In this document: positions 38,543-49,972 of the stretch, piece after piece | How positions within the stretch are numbered: position 1 is the stretch's first letter | Layout: every line of letters starts with the position of its first letter | NCBI RefSeq assembly: GCF_002754935.1 | Contig: NZ_CP018092.1 | Location: 2,108,001 to 2,172,000, forward strand | DNA from: Thermostichus lividus PCC 6715 | GTDB lineage: Bacteria; Cyanobacteriota; Cyanobacteriia; Thermosynechococcales; Thermosynechococcaceae | DNA: 64,000 bases | Reading direction: 5' to 3' | The notes under the pieces: generated by a model | The model's input: the letters and a program-made list of their open reading frames with translations, nothing else | Databases searched by the model: none | What the model was told of the DNA's origin: nothing | Made by a program: the position numbers and the translations under genes

Positions 38543-39824
38543 TTGCCAACAGTGGTCATTATTGCCTACGAGTACATTGACCCCCTCTGGCAACCCCTAC
38601 CAGAGGCATATCCGTGGGGAAGCGAGATTGATCGCTGGGTTTTGGATGTGGAACCCCATCGCCCCCAATTGCGGCAGTTGCTTGCCCACCTGCAACCGGG
38701 CTATTGGTTACTGCCCAGCTTGAGTGTGTTGGGCACGTCTATTCCTGAGGTGAACGATCGCCTCAAGCACCTCGAAGCAGCAGGGGTGACGGTCATTGCC
38801 TTGGCCGAGGGCTACGTGAGCGATCGCCCTGTCCCTGCCGATCGCTTGTTAAACCTCTGGCAGCACGTCAAAGAGCAGCTCCATCGCCAAACTCTACGCC
38901 ATGGCCATGCCCGCAATCGCCTCAAACATCAGCCGCCCCCCGGACGTGCCCCCTACGGCTACCGGCGTGGTAAAGACCATTACGTGGTGGATCGCGCCGC
39001 GGCGGTGGTGGTCAAAGATTTTGTCGAGCACTTTTTGCTGTACGGCTCCTTAAGTGCGGCGGTTCGCTTTATTGCGGCTGCCCATCAAAAAACCATTAGC
39101 GTTACCACGGCTCGGCGCTGGCTGACGCATCCTGTGTATCGCGGTCATCTGCGCTACCAAGGCCAGACGGTTATCCGCAATACCCACACTCCCCTGATCT
39201 CTGCGGATGAAGCAGCGCAAGTGGATCGCCTCTTGCGGCGTAACCGTGGGTTGCCCCGCCGCAGTGCTAGCGCCCCCCACCCCCTTGCTGGCTTAGTGGT
39301 GTGTGGGCAATGCCACCACCGCTTTGGCCGTATCCAAGTGAGTGGCTATCGCCAAGCACCCCAGTACTGCTATCTGCGGCCCCTGCACTGCCCCCAGCGG
39401 CCAAAATGCCGCAGTATTCCCTACCAGAGGGCACTGGAAACGGTCATTGCGCAAATTTGTCAGTGCTTGCCGCCGGCGATCGCCCAACTGGCGCAGCCCC
39501 CTCTCACCTACCAGAGGCCATCGGCCAAATCCAACAGCACCTTGACCAATTGCAAGACCTAGAAACAATAGGTCTTTTAGATGCCGAGACGGCGCAACTC
39601 CGCCGCTATAAATTGCAGGCACAGCTCTCGCAGCTACAGGATCAGCAAGCCCAACTCCCCCCAGAAATCTGATACAGTTAGTGGTCACCCTCAGCCAACC
39701 CCAGTTTTGGTACCAGCTTTCCGCGGCAGAGCAGCGGTTTTACTTTCGTGAATTTTTGCGAGGGATTGAAGTACGGAGTCCGCCGCAGGAACAATGGCAA
39801 ATACACCTTCAGTTCATTTTCTAG
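38543..39824 (+). CDS. Serine-recombinase-like protein with degenerate resolvase domain, frameshifted twice in the C-terminus
   Basis: Domains: an N-terminal resolvase-like fold (1-100) lacking the canonical catalytic Y-x-R-V-S motif and with SVLGTS where active enzymes have SRLGRS; a Recombinase domain (about 130-240; GRAPYGYRRGKDHYVVDRAA, RRWLTHPVYRGHLRYQG); a zinc ribbon (LVVCGQCHHRF, then two more Cys); and a coiled-coil tail. The first frame ends at 39562, but the tail continues in frame 39301-39672 (QIQQHLDQLQDLETIGLLDA) and then to TAG 39822-39824 (FWYQLSAAEQRFYFREFLRG). One extra C at the C5 tract 39497-39501 and one at the C6 tract 39657-39662 would give 427 continuous residues. Start TTG 38543 is uncertain. 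Role unknown; recombination activity is doubtful. Confidence 0.72.
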
Positions 39825-40834
39825 ATTCTAGAGTTTCTAGCGCTGTGCAGTGGCAGTGGTTTGTTTATACTGAGCCGTTACGGGAACCCCTAGCAACCGC
39901 ACAAGGCGTGTGGCGATCGCGCCAAGGCATTTACCTACGGCTGCAAAATGAGCAGGGTCAGATAGGCTACGGCGAAATTGCCCCCCTGCCGAGGTGGGGC
40001 ACAGAATCCCTAGGGGCAGCTATTGCCCTTTGTCAGGAACTGCCACCCCAGTTAACCCCTGAGATCATTGCCGCCATTCCCGATGACTTGCCCGCCGCCC
40101 AGTTTGGGTTTGCGACCGCTTGGCAGAGTGTTGGCCGCTTACCCTATACCCTAGGGAACTGGCCGCTGTGTGGGTTGCTCAGCAATGGCTCCCGGGCACT
40201 ACAGGAGTGGCACCTAGGGTGGCAACAGGGCTACCGCACCTTTAAGTGGAAAGTGGGGGTGGATTCCCCAGCCCACGAACAGGCCATCCTTACAGAGCTG
40301 TTAGCACAACTGCCGGCTGGGGTAACGCTGCGGCTGGATGCCAATGGCAGTTGGGACTGGCACACCGCTGTGCAGTGGTTACGGTGGCTAGACCGATGGC
40401 CAGTAGAGCGGATTGAATGGGTGGAACAACCCTTGCCAGCCGCTGACTGGGAGAGCCTAGAGAGGTTAGCCCAAGGGTTTGCAATTCCTGTTGCCCTCGA
40501 TGAAAGTGTGGTGAGCTGGCGGCAACTCCAGCAGTGGCACGCGCGGCAATGGCCGGGACTGTACGTCATCAAACCCGCTCTATTCGGTGCGCCAGCGCGG
40601 TTAAACCACTTGCTGGCCCAAGGGCTGCCCTTGACGCAATTGGTGTTTTCCTCCGCTCTGGAAGGGGCGATCGCCCGCACGGCTATTTTTAACCTCTTAC
40701 AAATATGGCAACCCCAGCACGCCCTTGGCTTTGGCGTGGATCGCTGGCGACCCGTTACTCTCCTGACCTCCTTGGCAGACTACGCCAGTGAGTGGCAACG
40801 CCTTGACAATTATGGTAAAAATTACTATAAGTGA
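39794..40834 (+). CDS. menC: o-Succinylbenzoate synthase
   Basis: MenC, an enolase-superfamily dehydratase, makes o-succinylbenzoate in phylloquinone/menaquinone synthesis, needed for photosystem I. The 346-residue protein carries the catalytic KWKVG (Lys pair), RLDANGSWD, EWVEQPL, ALDESV and VIKPAL motifs that hold Mg and the second base. AGGA lies just before ATG 39794. Its start overlaps the last 31 bases of the preceding gene. menA is also in this window, far away. Its last codons hold the promoter/operator of the NAD operon. Confidence 0.9.
   Translation: MANTPSVHFLDSRVSSAVQWQWFVYTEPLREPLATAQGVWRSRQGIYLRLQNEQGQIGYGEIAPLPRWGTESLGAAIALCQELPPQLTPEIIAAIPDDLPAAQFGFATAWQSVGRLPYTLGNWPLCGLLSNGSRALQEWHLGWQQGYRTFKWKVGVDSPAHEQAILTELLAQLPAGVTLRLDANGSWDWHTAVQWLRWLDRWPVERIEWVEQPLPAADWESLERLAQGFAIPVALDESVVSWRQLQQWHARQWPGLYVIKPALFGAPARLNHLLAQGLPLTQLVFSSALEGAIARTAIFNLLQIWQPQHALGFGVDRWRPVTLLTSLADYASEWQRLDNYGKNYYK
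40803..40831 (+). promoter_or_regulatory. Sigma70-type promoter with overlapping 21-bp inverted repeat, NAD operon
   Basis: TTGACA (40803-40808) and TATAAG (40826-40831) are separated by exactly 17 bp, the best promoter I see in the window. Between and over the -10 lies a dyad: TTATGGTAA and TTACTATAA (40810-40830) around AAA, with one mismatch between arms. A repressor here would block RNA polymerase. The site lies within the last codons of menC and about 28 bp before pncB. NrtR, encoded two genes on, is the natural candidate ligand; that link is inference. Confidence 0.75.
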
Positions 40835-40858: not shown

Positions 40859-42172
40859 ATGACCAGTTTCACCGTTGCTGCCAGTGACTACAGCCTCCTA
40901 ACGGATTTGTACCAAGTGACGATGGCAGCAGCTTACGCGGGGGAGGGCTTGGCCATGCTGCCCGCTAGCTTTGAGGTAACGGTGCGCCGCCTGCCGCGGG
41001 GGCATACCTACTTGGTGGCGATGGGGTTAGCCCAAGTGCTGGACTACCTCAGCCAGTTTTGCCTTACCCCCGAGCAGATCGAGTATTTGCAAGGTTTAGC
41101 CGTCTTTGAGCGGGCACCAGCAGCGTTTTGGGAACTGCTGCACGACAGTCGCTTTCAAGGCACCGTGTGGGCTGTGCCGGAAGGAACCGTTGTGTTTGCC
41201 CAAGAGCCGCTCCTGCGCATCGAAGCCCCACTATGGCAGGCGCAGTGGGTGGAAACCTTTATCCTCAATACCCTCAACTACCAAACCTTGATTGCCACCC
41301 GTGCCTCGCGGTTGCGGCAACTGGTGGGAGACACCGTGGCACTGCTAGAGTTTGGGACGCGGCGTGCCTTTAGCCCCCAAGCCTCCCTTTGGGCAGCGCG
41401 GGCGGCCTTAGCCGCAGGATTTAATGCCACCTCCAATGTGTTGGCCGCGCAGCAATTGGGCGTTGCCCCCACCGGTACCATGGCGCACTCGCTGGTGATG
41501 GCGATCGCCACCACTATAGGAACCGAGCAAGATGCGTTTACTGTATTTTTGCGCTACTACCCCGATGCTGCTCTCCTAGTGGATACCTACGATACCTTAA
41601 GTGCTGTGGCCACCTTGGCCAACCGTGAAGCGGCTGGCGAACTGCAAGTGCAAGCCGTGCGCATTGACTCCGGCGATCTGGTGAGCCTCTCTCAAAAAAT
41701 TCGCCAGTTGTTGCCCCACGCCAAAATTGTGGCCAGTGGTGATTTAGACGAAGCAGAAATTCGGCGACTGCTGACGGCGGGTGCCACCATTGATGCCTAC
41801 GGCATTGGCACGAAGCTCGTTACGGGTGATCCGGTGAATGGGGTCTATAAACTTGTGGAGATCAATGGCCATGGTGTGATGAAACGCTCCAGTGGCAAAG
41901 GGACACTGCCCGGTCGCAAGCAAATTTATCGCCGCCCCAGCGGTGATTACCTCGCCCTTGCAGATGAAGCCGATGTCTGGGGTACACCCCTGCTTGAGCA
42001 AGTGATGCAAGATGGTCAGCCCTTAATCCCCGTAGAGTCTGTCCGTACGATTGGCGATCGCCATCGAAGTAGCCTGAGTGCCCTCCCCCCCACCGTGCAG
42101 GAAACCCCCCAGCCAGTGGTCTATTCACCGGCACTAGACGCCCTAGTCCAGCAGTTACGGAGCCAGCCATGA
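40859..42172 (+). CDS. pncB: Nicotinate phosphoribosyltransferase
   Basis: PncB converts nicotinate and PRPP (with ATP) to nicotinate mononucleotide in NAD salvage. The 437-residue protein begins with the family block LLTDLYQVTMAAAYAGEG and shows LEFGTRRAFSPQASLWAARA, GTMAHSLVMAI, the QAVRIDSGDL active-site strand and GTKLVTGDPVNGVYKLVE. First gene behind the strong promoter at 40803. Its stop overlaps the nadD start by four bases (ATGA), so the two are translationally coupled. Confidence 0.95.
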   Translation: MTSFTVAASDYSLLTDLYQVTMAAAYAGEGLAMLPASFEVTVRRLPRGHTYLVAMGLAQVLDYLSQFCLTPEQIEYLQGLAVFERAPAAFWELLHDSRFQGTVWAVPEGTVVFAQEPLLRIEAPLWQAQWVETFILNTLNYQTLIATRASRLRQLVGDTVALLEFGTRRAFSPQASLWAARAALAAGFNATSNVLAAQQLGVAPTGTMAHSLVMAIATTIGTEQDAFTVFLRYYPDAALLVDTYDTLSAVATLANREAAGELQVQAVRIDSGDLVSLSQKIRQLLPHAKIVASGDLDEAEIRRLLTAGATIDAYGIGTKLVTGDPVNGVYKLVEINGHGVMKRSSGKGTLPGRKQIYRRPSGDYLALADEADVWGTPLLEQVMQDGQPLIPVESVRTIGDRHRSSLSALPPTVQETPQPVVYSPALDALVQQLRSQP

Positions 42173-42723
42173 GGATTGCGCTGTTTGGCACCAGTGCCGA
42201 TCCGCCAACCACTGCCCATGGTGATATTTTGCAGTGGCTGAGCGATCGCTACGACCGCGTCCTTGTTTGGGCAGCGGACAACCCCTTTAAGGTTCAGCAA
42301 ACCCCCTTACCCCTACGCCAAACCATGCTGGGTCTGCTCGTGCAGCATCTGAATTGCCCCAACATTGAGCACCGTGCTGAACTCAGCCATCGTTACACTC
42401 TGCACTCTGTAGAGGCAGCGCGCGCCCAGTGGCCCCAAGACTCCTTCACCTTGGTCGTGGGCAGTGATGTCTTGCCTAAACTCCGCCACTGGTATCGGGT
42501 GGAAGACCTGTTACGGCAGGTCAGCCTGCTGGTTTTGCAACGCCCCGGGGTGGTGATTGATCGTGAGGACTGGCAAGCCTTGCAGACGCTTTGCCACCAC
42601 TTGGAGCTGGCCAACTATCGTGGCCCACAGGTCTCCTCAACAACCTATCGCCAAGAAGGCGACCCCCAGCAACTCCTACCCGCGATCGCGCAGTATATCC
42701 AACAGCAAGGACTCTACTCTTAG
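42169..42723 (+). CDS. nadD: Nicotinate-nucleotide adenylyltransferase
   Basis: NadD adenylylates nicotinate mononucleotide to deamido-NAD. The 184-residue protein has the nucleotidyltransferase HxGH-like loop as FGTSADPPTTAHGDILQWL, WAADNPFKVQ, VVGSDVLPKLRHWYR and the C-terminal SSTTYRQEGDPQQLLP (ISST-like motif). The start is fixed by the overlap with pncB. It completes, with PncB and NadE, the Preiss-Handler path in one operon. Confidence 0.93.
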   Translation: MRIALFGTSADPPTTAHGDILQWLSDRYDRVLVWAADNPFKVQQTPLPLRQTMLGLLVQHLNCPNIEHRAELSHRYTLHSVEAARAQWPQDSFTLVVGSDVLPKLRHWYRVEDLLRQVSLLVLQRPGVVIDREDWQALQTLCHHLELANYRGPQVSSTTYRQEGDPQQLLPAIAQYIQQQGLYS

Positions 42724-42726
42724 CAT

Positions 42727-43434
42727 ATGACCTCCGCCTTAGCCGAATTTGTTGTTGGTGTTGACAACGTAATTTTCTCGGTGGATACCGATGCAAATCG
42801 CCTGTTGGTGCTGTTGGTGCAGCGACAACACTGGCCGTTTGCTGGCGAGTGGAGCCTACCGGGCACCCTTGTCCGGCACGGAGAGTCCTTAGAAGCCGCC
42901 GCCTACCGCACCCTAGCGGAAAAAATTTGTGTCAATAACCTCTACCTTGAGCAGCTTTATACCTTTGGCGGCCCTGGGCGGGATCCCCGCGAAGCAGACA
43001 CCGCCTACGGAACACGCTATCTCTCTGTGAGTTACTTTGCCTTGGTGCGTTTTGCCGATGCCCAACTCATTGCCACCGGCGAGTCCCGTGTGCAGTGGTT
43101 TACGGTGCACAGCTGTCCCCCCTTAGCCTTTGACCACAGCATGATTCTGGCCTATGGTCACCGCCGCCTGTGCAACAAACTAGAGTACAGCCCCGTCGCT
43201 TTTGACGTACTGCCAGAGTACTTTACCCTCAATGATCTGTACCAGCTCTATAGCACAGTCCTTGGTCCCAATTTTTCCGATTATTCTAACTTCCGCTCGC
43301 GGCTACTTAAATTGGGCATTTTGCAGGATACACAGCAAAAAGTCATTCGGGGTGCGGGTCGTCCGGCTACCCTCTACCGCTTCGATCGCGAGGCCTTTGC
43401 CCCCCTCAAAGATAAGCCCTTAGTGTTTGTATAG
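42727..43434 (+). CDS. nrtR: NrtR-type NAD-responsive transcription regulator (Nudix + winged helix)
   Basis: A 235-residue protein: a Nudix-like domain (about 1-140; VDNVIFSVDTDANRLLVLLV, FAGEWSLPGTLVRHGESLEA) followed by a winged-helix DNA-binding domain (about 150-230; FTLNDLYQLYSTVLG, NFRSRLLKLGIL, GAGRPATLYRFD). The Nudix box is degenerate (EAAAYRTLAEKI in place of REUXEE), as in NrtR, which senses ADP-ribose or NAD products instead of cleaving them. It sits 3 nt after nadD and 16 nt before nadE, and probably represses this operon through the dyad at 40810-40830. An enzymatic Nudix role cannot be fully excluded. Confidence 0.88.
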   Translation: MTSALAEFVVGVDNVIFSVDTDANRLLVLLVQRQHWPFAGEWSLPGTLVRHGESLEAAAYRTLAEKICVNNLYLEQLYTFGGPGRDPREADTAYGTRYLSVSYFALVRFADAQLIATGESRVQWFTVHSCPPLAFDHSMILAYGHRRLCNKLEYSPVAFDVLPEYFTLNDLYQLYSTVLGPNFSDYSNFRSRLLKLGILQDTQQKVIRGAGRPATLYRFDREAFAPLKDKPLVFV

Positions 43435-43450: not shown

Positions 43451-45166
43451 ATGGCAGTGCATCTGTGGATGGCCCAGCTTAACCCCATCGTTGGCGACCT
43501 CAGCGGGAATGCTCGGGCGATCGCCCAAGGGGTAAAAGCACTGCATCATCGCCAGCCGGTGGACGTGGTCATTACCTCAGAGCTAGCACTGTGTGGTTAC
43601 CCGCCCAAGGATCTCTTACTAAACCGCTATTTCATTGACAATATCCAAAAAGAGCTAGACGCACTGGCCCAAGCCTTGCCCCCCAACGTAGCGGTGCTCG
43701 TGGGAACCGTACTGCCCAATCCGGCAGCCAGCCGTAACGGCGAAAAGCCGCTATACAATGGTGCGGCGCTGTTGCAGGGGGGAACGGTACAGCGAGTCTT
43801 TGCCAAGCAACTGCTGCCCACCTACGATGTATTTGATGAAAGCCGCTATTTTGCCCCCGGCGATACCAATAATCTATGGCGGTTGCAAACCAGTAGCGAC
43901 TGCCTCACCATTGGTGTCACCATCTGTGAAGACCTTTGGAATAACGAAGCCTTTTGGGGAGAGCGGCACTACCAGAAAAATCCGGTCGCAGAGTTGGCGG
44001 CCCAAGGAGCAGAGTTGATTGTCAACCTGTCTGCCTCTCCCTACTGTGTGGCTAAACCCAAGTTGCGGCAGGCCTTAATTGAGCATACGGTCCAGCAGTA
44101 CGGCTGTCCCCTGATATATGTAAACCAAGTAGGGGGAAATGATGATCTGATTTTTGATGGCACCAGCCTTGCGGTGAGCCGTACGGGGGCAGTGGTGAGC
44201 CAAGCCCATAGTTTTCAAGAGGATTGGTTGCCGGTGGTGTGGGACAACGGAGATTTACAACCCACCACGGTTGCCCCGCGGCCAGCCACAGAAGCCGCAG
44301 AAATTTGGCAAGCCTTAGTCCTAGGTGTCAGGGACTATGCCCGCAAGTGTAGCTTTGAGCGGGTGGTGATTGGCCTCAGTGGCGGTATTGACTCTGCCTT
44401 GGTGGCGGCGATCGCCACGGCAGCAGTGGGTCACGAGAACGTTTTAGGGGTGTTGATGCCCTCTCCTTACAGTTCTGTACACTCCATTACCGATGCCAAG
44501 GATCTGGCGCTCAACTTGGGGATCCAGACCGCACAGTTACCCATTGCCCCCCTGATGGAAACCTATCACCACGTCCTAACACCCCTGTTTGCCCAGACCA
44601 CTCCGGGGGTGGCCGAGGAAAATATCCAAGCCCGCATCCGCGGTACCCTGCTGATGGCGATCGCCAACAAATTTGGCCACCTCCTCATTTCTACAGGGAA
44701 TAAGTCCGAATTGGCGGTGGGCTACTGCACCCTTTACGGGGACATGAGTGGCGGCCTGGCGGCCATTGCCGATGTCCCCAAAACCCGTGTTTATGAACTT
44801 TGCCACTGGCTCAACCAGCAGGCGAGCCAAGGGACACCGATTCCCGAACTCACCCCTCGGGGCAATGGGGTCATTCCCGTCGCCATTCTGACGAAGGCTC
44901 CTAGCGCCGAACTCAAGCCCAATCAAACCGATCAAGATACGCTGCCCCCCTACGATGTGCTAGATGGCATCCTCGCGCTGATGATCGATCGCCACTACTC
45001 AGACAGCGACATTGCTGACCAAGGCTATGACCTTGCTCTTGTGCAGCGGGTGCGGCAGATGGTGCAGCGGGCTGAATTTAAGCGGCAACAGGCAGCTCCG
45101 GGTCTAAAAATTACCGATCGCGCCTTTGGTTCAGGCTGGCGGATGCCCATTGCTGCGCGTTGGTAA
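43451..45166 (+). CDS. nadE: NAD+ synthase, glutamine-hydrolysing
   Basis: NadE amidates deamido-NAD to NAD, taking ammonia from glutamine. The 571-residue protein has an N-terminal nitrilase-like amidase domain with the Glu/Lys/Cys triad in SELALCGYPPKDLLL, FAKQLLPTYDVFDE and GVTICEDLWNNEAFW, then the synthetase domain with the P-loop GLSGGIDSALVAAIA and STGNKSELAVGYCTLYGDMS. ATG 43451 is chosen since AGGAGG lies 5 nt upstream; earlier in-frame codons overlap nrtR. Last gene of the pncB-nadD-nrtR-nadE operon; malic enzyme follows 67 bp later. Confidence 0.96.
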   Translation: MAVHLWMAQLNPIVGDLSGNARAIAQGVKALHHRQPVDVVITSELALCGYPPKDLLLNRYFIDNIQKELDALAQALPPNVAVLVGTVLPNPAASRNGEKPLYNGAALLQGGTVQRVFAKQLLPTYDVFDESRYFAPGDTNNLWRLQTSSDCLTIGVTICEDLWNNEAFWGERHYQKNPVAELAAQGAELIVNLSASPYCVAKPKLRQALIEHTVQQYGCPLIYVNQVGGNDDLIFDGTSLAVSRTGAVVSQAHSFQEDWLPVVWDNGDLQPTTVAPRPATEAAEIWQALVLGVRDYARKCSFERVVIGLSGGIDSALVAAIATAAVGHENVLGVLMPSPYSSVHSITDAKDLALNLGIQTAQLPIAPLMETYHHVLTPLFAQTTPGVAEENIQARIRGTLLMAIANKFGHLLISTGNKSELAVGYCTLYGDMSGGLAAIADVPKTRVYELCHWLNQQASQGTPIPELTPRGNGVIPVAILTKAPSAELKPNQTDQDTLPPYDVLDGILALMIDRHYSDSDIADQGYDLALVQRVRQMVQRAEFKRQQAAPGLKITDRAFGSGWRMPIAARW

Positions 45167-45233: not shown

Positions 45234-46625
45234 ATGGCTGACCTGACCCCGAATCCTAGTTTTAGCCTCACCTTACGCCTTGAAATTCCCCAACAACCCG
45301 GTATGTTGGCGAGTGTCTTGCAAGTCATTGGTCAAGAAAAGGGACATGTAGGGCAAATTAGCCTGATTCAGCATACTCGCAGTGCGCTTGTCCGCGATAT
45401 TACAGTAGCCGCCGCCAGTACTGAACATGCCGCCGCCATTGTGAATGCCGTCAAGCAAGAGACTGCAGCGAAGGTGTTGGACGTTTTTGACCGCACTTTC
45501 CGGCTCCATGAGGGGGGTAAAATTACCGTCACCAGCAAACTTCCCCTTCACGATCAAGATGATTTGGCCATGGCCTACACCCCCGGGGTAGGACGGATTT
45601 CGCGGGCGATCGCCGAAGAGCCAGCCCTTGTCCATCGCCTCACCATCAAGAACCATACCGTTGCCATTGTCACCGATGGCAGTGCCGTCTTAGGCTTGGG
45701 CAACATCGGTCCAGAGGCAGCACTGCCGGTGATGGAGGGCAAAGCGATGCTCTTCCAAGAGTTTGCCAGTCTGGATGCCTTTCCCATTTGTTTGGCGACC
45801 CAGGATGTTGATGAAATTGTAGCAACAGTCAAGCGCATTGCCCCCGTCTTTGGCGGTGTGAATCTTGAGGATATTAGTGCGCCGCGCTGCTTTGAAATTG
45901 AGCAACGGCTGCAGGCAGAGCTGGATATTCCCGTCTTCCACGATGACCAGCACGGTACCGCCATTGTCACCCTTGCGGCTCTCAACAATGCCCTTAAGGT
46001 GGTCAAAAAATCCTTGGCAGACGTGCGCATTGTCATCAATGGCGCCGGGGCTGCTGGCATTGCCATTGCGCGTCTTCTCAAAAAAGCAGGCGCGACAACC
46101 ATTTTGTTGTGCGACTCCCAAGGAATTGTTTCCCACGATCGCCCCCACCTCAGCGGGGCAAAGCAGGAATTTGCAGTTGCAACAACAGGAACCTTGGCCG
46201 ATGCCCTCCAAGGAGCAGACGTGTTCTTGGGGGTGAGTGTCCCGGGCGTAGTCACCCTAGACATGATTCAATCGATGGCCAAGGATGCCATTGTTTTTGC
46301 GATGGCCAACCCCATTCCAGAAATTCAACCAGAATTGATCTATAACCATGTGGCCGTTGTGGCCACAGGTCGGAGTGATTATCCCAATCAGATCAACAAC
46401 GTACTGGCCTTTCCGGGGGTGTTTAAGGGCGCCCTTGCCTGTCGTGCCGCTGCTATGACAACAACAATGTACCTTGAAGCTGCTCAGGCGATCGCCGCGT
46501 TGATTAGTCCTAACGAGCTGCAGCCAGACTACATCATTCCCTCCGTTTTTGATCGTCGCGTTGCCAATGTCGTTGCTACCGCGGTTGAACAGTGTGCGCG
46601 ATCGCAGGGGTTGGCGCGCTGTTAA
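45234..46625 (+). CDS. NAD(P)-dependent malic enzyme with N-terminal ACT domain
   Basis: Malic enzyme decarboxylates malate to pyruvate with reduction of NAD(P). The first 80 residues are an ACT regulatory domain (LRLEIPQQPGMLASVLQVIG), then the malic N-domain with YTPGVGRISRAI, TDGSAVLGLGNIGPEAALPV, and HDDQHGTAIVTLAALNNAL, and the Rossmann domain with INGAGAAGIAIARLLKKAG. The 463-residue length fits ACT-containing prokaryotic malic enzymes. Cofactor preference cannot be read. Its 3' end overlaps the convergent HAD gene by 50 bp. Position after the NAD operon may be functional but could be chance. Confidence 0.94.
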   Translation: MADLTPNPSFSLTLRLEIPQQPGMLASVLQVIGQEKGHVGQISLIQHTRSALVRDITVAAASTEHAAAIVNAVKQETAAKVLDVFDRTFRLHEGGKITVTSKLPLHDQDDLAMAYTPGVGRISRAIAEEPALVHRLTIKNHTVAIVTDGSAVLGLGNIGPEAALPVMEGKAMLFQEFASLDAFPICLATQDVDEIVATVKRIAPVFGGVNLEDISAPRCFEIEQRLQAELDIPVFHDDQHGTAIVTLAALNNALKVVKKSLADVRIVINGAGAAGIAIARLLKKAGATTILLCDSQGIVSHDRPHLSGAKQEFAVATTGTLADALQGADVFLGVSVPGVVTLDMIQSMAKDAIVFAMANPIPEIQPELIYNHVAVVATGRSDYPNQINNVLAFPGVFKGALACRAAAMTTTMYLEAAQAIAALISPNELQPDYIIPSVFDRRVANVVATAVEQCARSQGLARC

Positions 46626-47496: not shown

Positions 47497-49972
47497 ATGT
47501 TTGAGCGGTTCACAGAAAAAGCCATTAAAGTCATCATGCTGGCACAGGAAGAGGCACGCCGCCTTGGTCATAACTTTGTCGGCACTGAACAAATCCTCCT
47601 CGGTCTGATTGGCGAAGGTACCGGTGTTGCGGCTAAAGTCTTGCGATCTATGGGGGTTAACCTCAAAGATGCCCGCATTGAAGTGGAAAAAATCATTGGC
47701 CGGGGGTCGGGCTTCGTAGCCGTGGAAATTCCCTTTACCCCCCGTGCCAAACGTGTTTTAGAACTATCCCTTGAAGAAGCTCGCCAACTAGGGCACAACT
47801 ACATTGGCACTGAGCACCTGCTACTAGGCTTAATCCGCGAAGGCGAAGGCGTTGCAGCGCGGGTGCTGGAAAACTTGGGGGTTGATCTGTCTAAGGTGCG
47901 CACCCAAGTCATTCGGATGCTTGGAGAAACTGCCGAAGTTGCCGCTGGTGCCAGTCAAGGCCGGACAAAAACCCCAACCCTCGACGAGTTTGGTGCCAAT
48001 CTCACCCAGATGGCCATCGATGGCAAGCTCGATCCCGTGGTGGGTCGTCAGAAAGAAATTGAGCGGGTGATTCAGATTCTGGGTCGCCGCACTAAAAATA
48101 ACCCTGTTCTGATCGGGGAACCCGGTGTCGGCAAAACTGCCATTGCCGAAGGCTTAGCCCAACGAATTGCCAACAACGACGTGCCGGATATTCTCAATGA
48201 AAAGCGCGTCGTCACCCTCGATATTGGCCTCTTGGTGGCGGGCACTAAGTATCGTGGCGAGTTTGAAGAGCGGCTCAAGAAAATTATGGACGAAATTCGC
48301 CAAGCGGGTAACGTCATCCTCGTGATTGATGAGGTGCACACCCTCATTGGTGCTGGCGCTGCCGAAGGTGCCATTGATGCTGCCAACATTCTCAAACCTG
48401 CGCTTGCCCGCGGTGAATTACAGTGCATTGGTGCCACAACCCTGGATGAGTACCGCAAGCATATTGAGCGGGATGCAGCTCTAGAGCGACGCTTTCAGCC
48501 GGTGATGGTGGGTGAACCTTCAGTGGAGGAAACCATCGAGATTCTCTATGGTTTGCGCGAGCGCTACGAGAAGCACCACAAGTTAAAAATCTCCGATGAA
48601 GCGCTTGAAGCGGCAGCAAAACTCTCTGACCGCTACATTAGCGATCGCTACTTGCCGGACAAAGCCATTGACCTCATTGACGAAGCCGGCTCGCGGGTAC
48701 GGTTAATTAACTCCCAACTGCCGCCTGCGGCAAAAGATCTGGACAAAGAACTGCGGCAAGTGCTCAAAGAAAAAGACGATGCCGTACGGGCACAAAACTT
48801 TGACAAAGCCGGGGAGCTGCGCGATCGCGAGATGGAGCTGAAAGCCCAAATTCGCGCCATTGCCCAGCAGAAAAAAACCGAGGCAACCACCGGTGAAGAA
48901 GAGACCCCAGTGGTCACCGAAGAGGACATTGCCCACATTGTGGCCTCTTGGACCGGTGTGCCCGTGAGCAAACTCACCGAAACCGAGTCGGAAAAAACTG
49001 CTGCACATGGAGGATACCCTGCACCAGCGGGTGATTGGCCAAGACGAAGCGGTGAAGGCCATCTCTCGCGCCATTCGCCGGGCGCGCGTGGGGCTGAAAA
49101 ACCCAAACCGTCCCATTGCCAGCTTTATCTTTTCCGGGCCCACGGGCGTGGGTAAGACCGAGTTGACCAAAGCCTTGGCTGCCTACTTCTTTGGCTCGGA
49201 AGAGGCCATGATTCGCCTCGATATGTCTGAGTACATGGAGCGGCATACAGTTTCTAAGCTCATTGGTTCGCCTCCGGGGTATGTAGGCTACAACGAAGGG
49301 GGTCAACTCACCGAAGCCGTGCGGCGGCGGCCCTACACCGTGGTGCTTTTTGATGAAATTGAAAAAGCCCACCCCGATGTCTTTAACTTGCTGCTGCAAA
49401 TTCTCGAAGATGGGCGGCTCACTGACTCTAAAGGGCGCACCGTAGATTTCAAAAACACCCTGTTGATCATGACCTCAAACATTGGTTCCAAGGTCATTGA
49501 AAAAGGAGCAGGGGGTCTTGGCTTTGAGTTGGGCACTGAAGATGCTGCCGAATCTCAGTACAACCGCATCCGCTCCCTCGTCAACGAAGAACTCAAGCAG
49601 TATTTCCGCCCTGAGTTCCTCAACCGGCTAGATGAAATTATTGTCTTCCGTCAACTCACGAAAGACGAAGTCAAGCAGATTGCCGATATTCTGCTCAAGG
49701 AAGTGTTCTCGCGACTGACCGAGAAGGGGATTACCCTCGAAGTCACCGATCGCTTCAAGGAGCGGCTCATTGATGAGGGCTACAACCCCAGTTACGGAGC
49801 ACGACCCCTACGGCGGGCAATTATGCGGTTACTGGAAGATACCCTTGCCGAGGAAATGCTCTCCGGTCGCATCCGCGAAGGGGATACAGCCCTGATTGAT
49901 ATCAACGAGTCAGGACAAGTGAGCATTCAGCCGCAACAACGCCGTGAGCTTTTACCCCAATCAGTTGAATAA
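47497..49972 (+). CDS. clpC: ATP-dependent Clp protease ATP-binding subunit ClpC, split by one extra A
   Basis: ClpC is the Hsp100 unfoldase for ClpP/ClpR, essential in cyanobacteria and a partner of NblA. Order: N-domain repeats ([19 protein letters not shown]), AAA1 ([30 protein letters not shown]), UVR linker ([16 protein letters not shown]), AAA2 ([35 protein letters not shown]). The first frame ends at 49155; the second ([18 protein letters not shown]) runs to 49972. At 48991 the sequence is G-A6-CTG; with five A the frame reads [13 protein letters not shown] and gives 824 residues. Read as printed, the protein stops after AAA1. Sequencing error is most likely; slippage is the alternative. 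Confidence 0.93.

Follow-up and report, generated by a model that had tools for sequence, protein, structure and literature searches.

The 21-bp dyad in the pncB promoter is, with high probability, the operator of NrtR, the regulator whose own gene stands third in the operon behind this promoter. Through this site NrtR would repress pncB-nadD-nrtR-nadE, and through a second copy nadA, until relieved by an NAD metabolite. The site lies in a stretch of 64,000 nucleotides, positions 2108001-2172000 in the genome of a hot-spring Thermosynechococcus, which we refer to as the window.

Structure of the site and the operon

The elements of the site, the operon genes and the preceding gene menC are listed below by window coordinates.

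39794..40834, plus strand: menC, o-succinylbenzoate synthase, stop codon TGA at 40832-40834 (NCBIfam equivalog, 373.7 bits, cut-off 259)
40803..40808, plus strand: -35 hexamer TTGACA (read directly)
40810..40830, plus strand: predicted NrtR operator, 21-bp dyad TTATGGTAAAAATTACTATAA (genome-wide match and conservation)
40826..40831, plus strand: -10 hexamer TATAAG, sharing bases with the right half-site (N17 from TTGACA)
40859..42172, plus strand: pncB, nicotinate phosphoribosyltransferase, at the head of the operon (NCBIfam NF006696, 565.9 bits, cut-off 503)
42169..42723, plus strand: nadD, nicotinate-nucleotide adenylyltransferase (NCBIfam NF000842, 239.4 bits, cut-off 167)
42727..43434, plus strand: nrtR, winged-helix protein with a Nudix-like domain, presumed to repress nadA and the operon it belongs to (Pfam, PDB homology)
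43451..45166, plus strand: nadE, glutamine-dependent NAD synthetase, at the end of the conserved operon (NCBIfam NF010588, 725.4 bits, cut-off 479)

The original prediction placed here a promoter of the form TTGACA-N17-TATAAG with a 21-bp dyad lying in the spacer and over the -10 hexamer, and direct reading confirms both the letters and their coordinates. The arms of the dyad, TTATGGTAA-AAA-TTACTATAA (40810-40830), are complementary at 8 of 9 pairs. The dyad sits within the final codons of menC and ends 28 bp before the pncB ATG at 40859. A search with TTGACA-N-dyad, allowing up to three mismatches, returned one match in the window and none in 100 shuffles. The pattern TTWTGGT-N7-ACTATAA has exactly two perfect matches in the 2.66-Mb closed genome, against about 0.02 expected from base composition by our own estimate. 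One is the site before pncB, and the other lies at 1393788-1393808 of the genome on the opposite strand, approximately 40 bp ahead of the nadA start.

The operon genes are closely packed, with nadD overlapping pncB by 4 bp, and the order pncB-nadD-nrtR-nadE is kept in most of 60 loci. A malic enzyme gene follows nadE after 67 bp (window 45234-46625; a possible N-terminal ACT domain scores below the Pfam cut-off). It was considered as a fifth gene of the operon and rejected, as it was not found behind nadE in relatives within the genus. Elsewhere in the window, clpC (47497-49972) is split into overlapping reading frames at 47497-49155 and 49007-49972. The break, near 48995-49006, coincides with six consecutive A, which makes an error in sequencing or a frameshift of recent date likely.

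Overlap of the operator with menC

Counting the window, 10 of 11 Thermosynechococcus genomes have the operator within the menC reading frame, so the MenC tail LDNYGKNYYK is written in promoter DNA. In nine of those ten, the menC stop falls 4 nt past the operator. The arrangement differs in G029 (L075), where a TnpA/TnpB-type element, IS200/IS605 by appearance, is inserted just upstream of the operator, between menC and pncB. There menC ends earlier, the operator and the -10 are intact, and the TTGACA -35 is replaced. In the sister-genus genome G066, TTGACA and the operator occupy the intergenic region upstream of pncB and menC is not upstream; nor was menC found upstream of pncB in the other families sampled. 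Since the operator occurs without menC upstream in G066 and in other families, the site appears older than the overlap, which we infer to be a genus-level accident of gene order.

This arrangement raises the question of how pncB is transcribed. Expression of pncB-nadE could come mainly from read-through of menC, leaving the internal promoter and operator minor or vestigial in Thermosynechococcus. Such read-through would suit two co-directional genes that are 24 bp apart with no terminator found between them, and a -10 that reads TATAAG and not TATAAT, but it fits poorly with a site of which no more than one of the 14 fixed letters has changed in any of the 11 genomes of the genus. It also fits poorly with the survival of the operator in G029 despite the TnpA/TnpB element inserted behind menC, and with the intergenic TTGACA and operator of G066. 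We therefore consider it unlikely that read-through predominates. Because read-through from menC into pncB may nevertheless occur, the further claim of the original prediction, that the position of the site gives the NAD genes control independent of menC, is one we put no higher than plausible.

Two other features of this region vary within the genus. In G043 (L074), menC is apparently broken by a change of frame or an early stop, although the 3' part of the gene survives together with the operator. Between glgA and menC, the window carries a recombinase-like reading frame (38543-39562) that matches Pfam Recombinase/Resolvase and whose N-terminal catalytic part is unmatched. A homologue stands upstream of menC in G096 and was not found in other members of the genus.

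Conservation at nadA and pncB

The original prediction depended on conservation of the dyad before the NAD genes of relatives, and we find it kept there at both nadA and pncB. The nadA comparison drew on 60 cyanobacteria, 46 with nrtR and 14 without, and covered approximately 900 bp ahead of nadA in each. The site is present in all 46 nrtR-positive genomes, with 13 or 14 of the 14 fixed positions matched and at a distance of 55-213 bp before the matched nadA start. Only one of the 14 nrtR-negative genomes has it (Fisher p ~3e-12, uncorrected for shared ancestry). That genome is G114, in which a contig breaks off within nadE, at the place expected for nrtR, and its nrtR therefore probably lies in an assembly gap. 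The nrtR-negative genome G014 has a remnant-like 11/14 match upstream of nadA.

For pncB, we built a weight matrix from the 46 nadA sites and no others and scored it on the 60 nrtR loci and on 80 named loci, with a threshold of at least 20 bits within 300 bp before pncB. The matrix finds a pncB site in 42/48 and 70/79 loci, respectively, two counts that share species and are not additive. Four further matrix sites lie ahead of nadD, each in a locus that lacks pncB. Across the 60 and 80 loci the matrix gives neither nrtR nor nadE a site of its own, and it scores no match in shuffled upstream sequences. The second target beside the pncB operon is nadA, and nadM was not found in the regulon. The operator reading gains from G004 and G177, where pncB is unlinked from nrtR and carries the site (G004 in two copies). 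The site was not found at the unlinked pncB of G005 or the distant pncB of G153, and G119, where pncB is linked to nrtR, has no recognisable site there. The two dyads in G004 (L046, 1438-1660) lie between pncB and a divergent gene for an isochorismatase-fold hydrolase, possibly a nicotinamidase by inspection, which suggests that NrtR may also control the hydrolase gene.

Co-occurrence at nadA alone cannot separate NrtR from a factor lost together with it, because pncB is missing in every tested NrtR-negative genome. The dyad might in principle belong to another transcription factor of NAD genes whose gains and losses happen to coincide with those of nrtR and pncB, and on the nadA counts the co-occurrence describes a whole module and not nrtR alone. 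Such a factor is very improbable, given that in most of the 60 loci the regulator gene present in the operon under control is nrtR, that genomes such as G112, G125, G020 and G060 retain nrtR and the nadA site without pncB, and that a cyanobacterial NrtR has already been reported to bind DNA and respond to ADP-ribose (PMC4666351). The reading of the dyad as the NrtR operator is supported.

The nrtR-negative genomes tested (G011, G030, G014, G055, G045 and others) are all without a recognisable pncB, and they keep nadA and, where tested, nadE. The salvage gene pncB and the regulator gene nrtR seem, from this gene content, to have been lost together.

An alignment of 122 pncB sites reveals mirrored arms, TTATGGT on the left and ACYATAA on the right, around an A/T-rich centre. 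The resulting consensus, TTATGGTnAAWTTnACYATAA, is a near-perfect palindrome, and several individual sites are fully palindromic, for example TTATGGTTAAAATAACCATAA. We also searched the window genome for further sites; these genome-wide counts come from pattern matching, the matrix having been applied to the upstream sequences of loci only. A third exact match, this one to the symmetric consensus, TTTTAGTACCAATTACTAAAA at genome position 1268018, lies inside a ChlN-like coding sequence by inspection (FFLVIGTK) and was rejected as a target. One-mismatch matches show no excess (2 per strand, against 3 and 1 for a reversed control pattern), and those at 234536 and 1891109 adjoin genes unrelated to NAD by inspection. 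With up to two mismatches, the symmetric pattern matches 71 times in the genome, below the 115 of the control, and so we do not claim a larger regulon.

Relation of the operator to the promoter elements

A strict sigma-70 scan misses the pncB promoter because its -10, TATAAG, ends in G and not T; TTGACA-N17-TATAAG is present by reading, and TATAAG is a sub-optimal -10. The exact TTGACA is found at the same spacing in 8 of the 11 Thermosynechococcus genomes (the window counted). The original prediction is weaker on the promoter than on the operator.

At nadA, the right arm always reads ACTATAA and the next base is T in 45 of 46 genomes, so that the arm constitutes a full TATAAT -10. Similarity to a -35 at the nadA sites is little different from background. 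Among the pncB sites with ACTATAA, 14 of 65 are preceded by a -35 that shares 5 or 6 letters with TTGACA, compared with a background rate of about 1% for such matches upstream of nadA. The overlap of the right arm with the -10, together with these -35 matches, indicates that the operator spans the core promoter, as the operator of a repressor would. That the likeness between sites reflects a shared core promoter only, a TATAAT and an A-rich spacer with no operator, is scarcely credible: the right half-site does include the -10 and A/T-rich spacers are common, but the two arms are similarly invariant, the left one (TTWTGGT) included, many pncB sites read ACCATAA without any TATAAT, and the nadA genes of NrtR-negative genomes are without the site.

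The absence of a clear -35 signal at the nadA promoter leads to a further proposal about how the NrtR operator acts. Operator and -10 would be the same DNA, with the nadA half-site kept at ACTATAAT for repressor and sigma factor alike, and NrtR occupancy might tune an unusual -10-driven promoter instead of acting as a simple on/off block. We regard this proposal as decidedly unlikely.

The regulator and a proposed mechanism

The operon was originally described as containing a Nudix/winged-helix regulator of the NrtR type, and its product proves to be a full-length NrtR homologue with a degenerate Nudix box. The protein (235 aa) matches the Pfam families NUDIX at residues 20-132 and NrtR_WHD at residues 158-219, both over the gathering cut-off, and also matches AraR_C. 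Homology to Shewanella NrtR and to BtAraR, the AraR of Bacteroides, in the PDB is near full length. Of the two Pfam models for the C-terminal domain, AraR_C scores 158 bits and NrtR_WHD 69 bits, which means only that the winged helix resembles the AraR branch; the gene context favours NAD. The operon and the location of all supported sites at NAD genes speak against a role as an AraR that controls arabinose genes. The NCBIfam NtrR equivalog model scores 134.4 bits against a cut-off of 400, a shortfall that excludes the protein from a narrow group and not from the NrtR family.

The Nudix box follows the pattern T-x5-E-x7-R[I/V/T]LxEK and is degenerate, a trait of NrtR. The glutamate after the arginine is present in 0 of 61 cyanobacterial sequences, and the second glutamate of the EE pair is replaced by lysine in 59 of the 61. 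Throughout the compared sets the protein keeps residues R33, R85 and H137, which map, via the PDB alignment, to the ligand contacts of AraR, namely Arg34, Arg86 and His131 (PMC4666351). As judged from these residues, the protein probably retains a ligand-binding pocket, and they leave the identity of the ligand unspecified. ADP-ribose suppresses DNA binding by the NrtR proteins of Synechocystis and Shewanella (PMC4666351), and by analogy we infer that it may be the effector in the window species.

We propose that an NrtR dimer binds the 21-bp palindrome and would thereby block RNA polymerase at the pncB-nadD-nrtR-nadE promoter, because the palindrome fills the spacer between -35 and -10 and its right half-site is the -10 itself. 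The second copy of the site would block nadA likewise. With two copies of the operator, the genes for salvage and the final steps (pncB, nadD and nadE) and the gene for de novo entry (nadA) would share one autoregulated switch. During NAD breakdown, ADP-ribose or a related NAD metabolite would occupy the degenerate Nudix pocket, and the ligand-bound NrtR would leave the DNA, allowing both transcription units to be expressed.

Comparison with known NrtR systems

These results tie NAD control in Thermosynechococcus to the promoters of pncB-nadD-nrtR-nadE and nadA, with a 21-bp target. They provide an operator consensus for the lineage as a whole, TTWTGGTnAAWTTnACYATAA, and across the sampled cyanobacterial families its occurrence at nadA tracks nrtR. 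The control of salvage versus de novo NAD synthesis in phototrophs thereby becomes directly testable. The general picture of NrtR is unchanged by the window site.

NrtR operators vary between lineages (PMC4666351), and the window system can be set beside four others. The NrtR of Mycobacterium smegmatis likewise has a palindromic operator, auto-repression and the EK change in the Nudix box; it controls nadA/B/C, and its operator, GTTTTCGA-N7-TCGAAAAC, is unrelated in sequence to the window dyad (PMC6800001). Bacteroides AraR, an arabinose regulator of the NrtR family (PDB 5bs6, 5ddg), gives the top PDB match and the top Pfam C-terminal score and has pocket residues in common with the window protein, but it regulates arabinose genes, whereas the neighbours and sites of the window protein are NAD genes. 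Shewanella oneidensis NrtR (PDB 3gz5, 3gz6, 3gz8) is homologous over residues 10-219 (E 1e-25) with the same order of its two domains, and is distant in sequence. The cyanobacterial NrtR regulon, with Synechocystis NrtR (Rodionov et al. 2008, via PMC4666351), is alike in its Nudix-like effector domain, its winged helix and its control of NAD genes; the window differs in species, in promoter geometry and in having its operator within the end of menC. The NrtR switch is thus already known from Synechocystis, where it responds to ADP-ribose, and the window is a new and well-supported instance of it.
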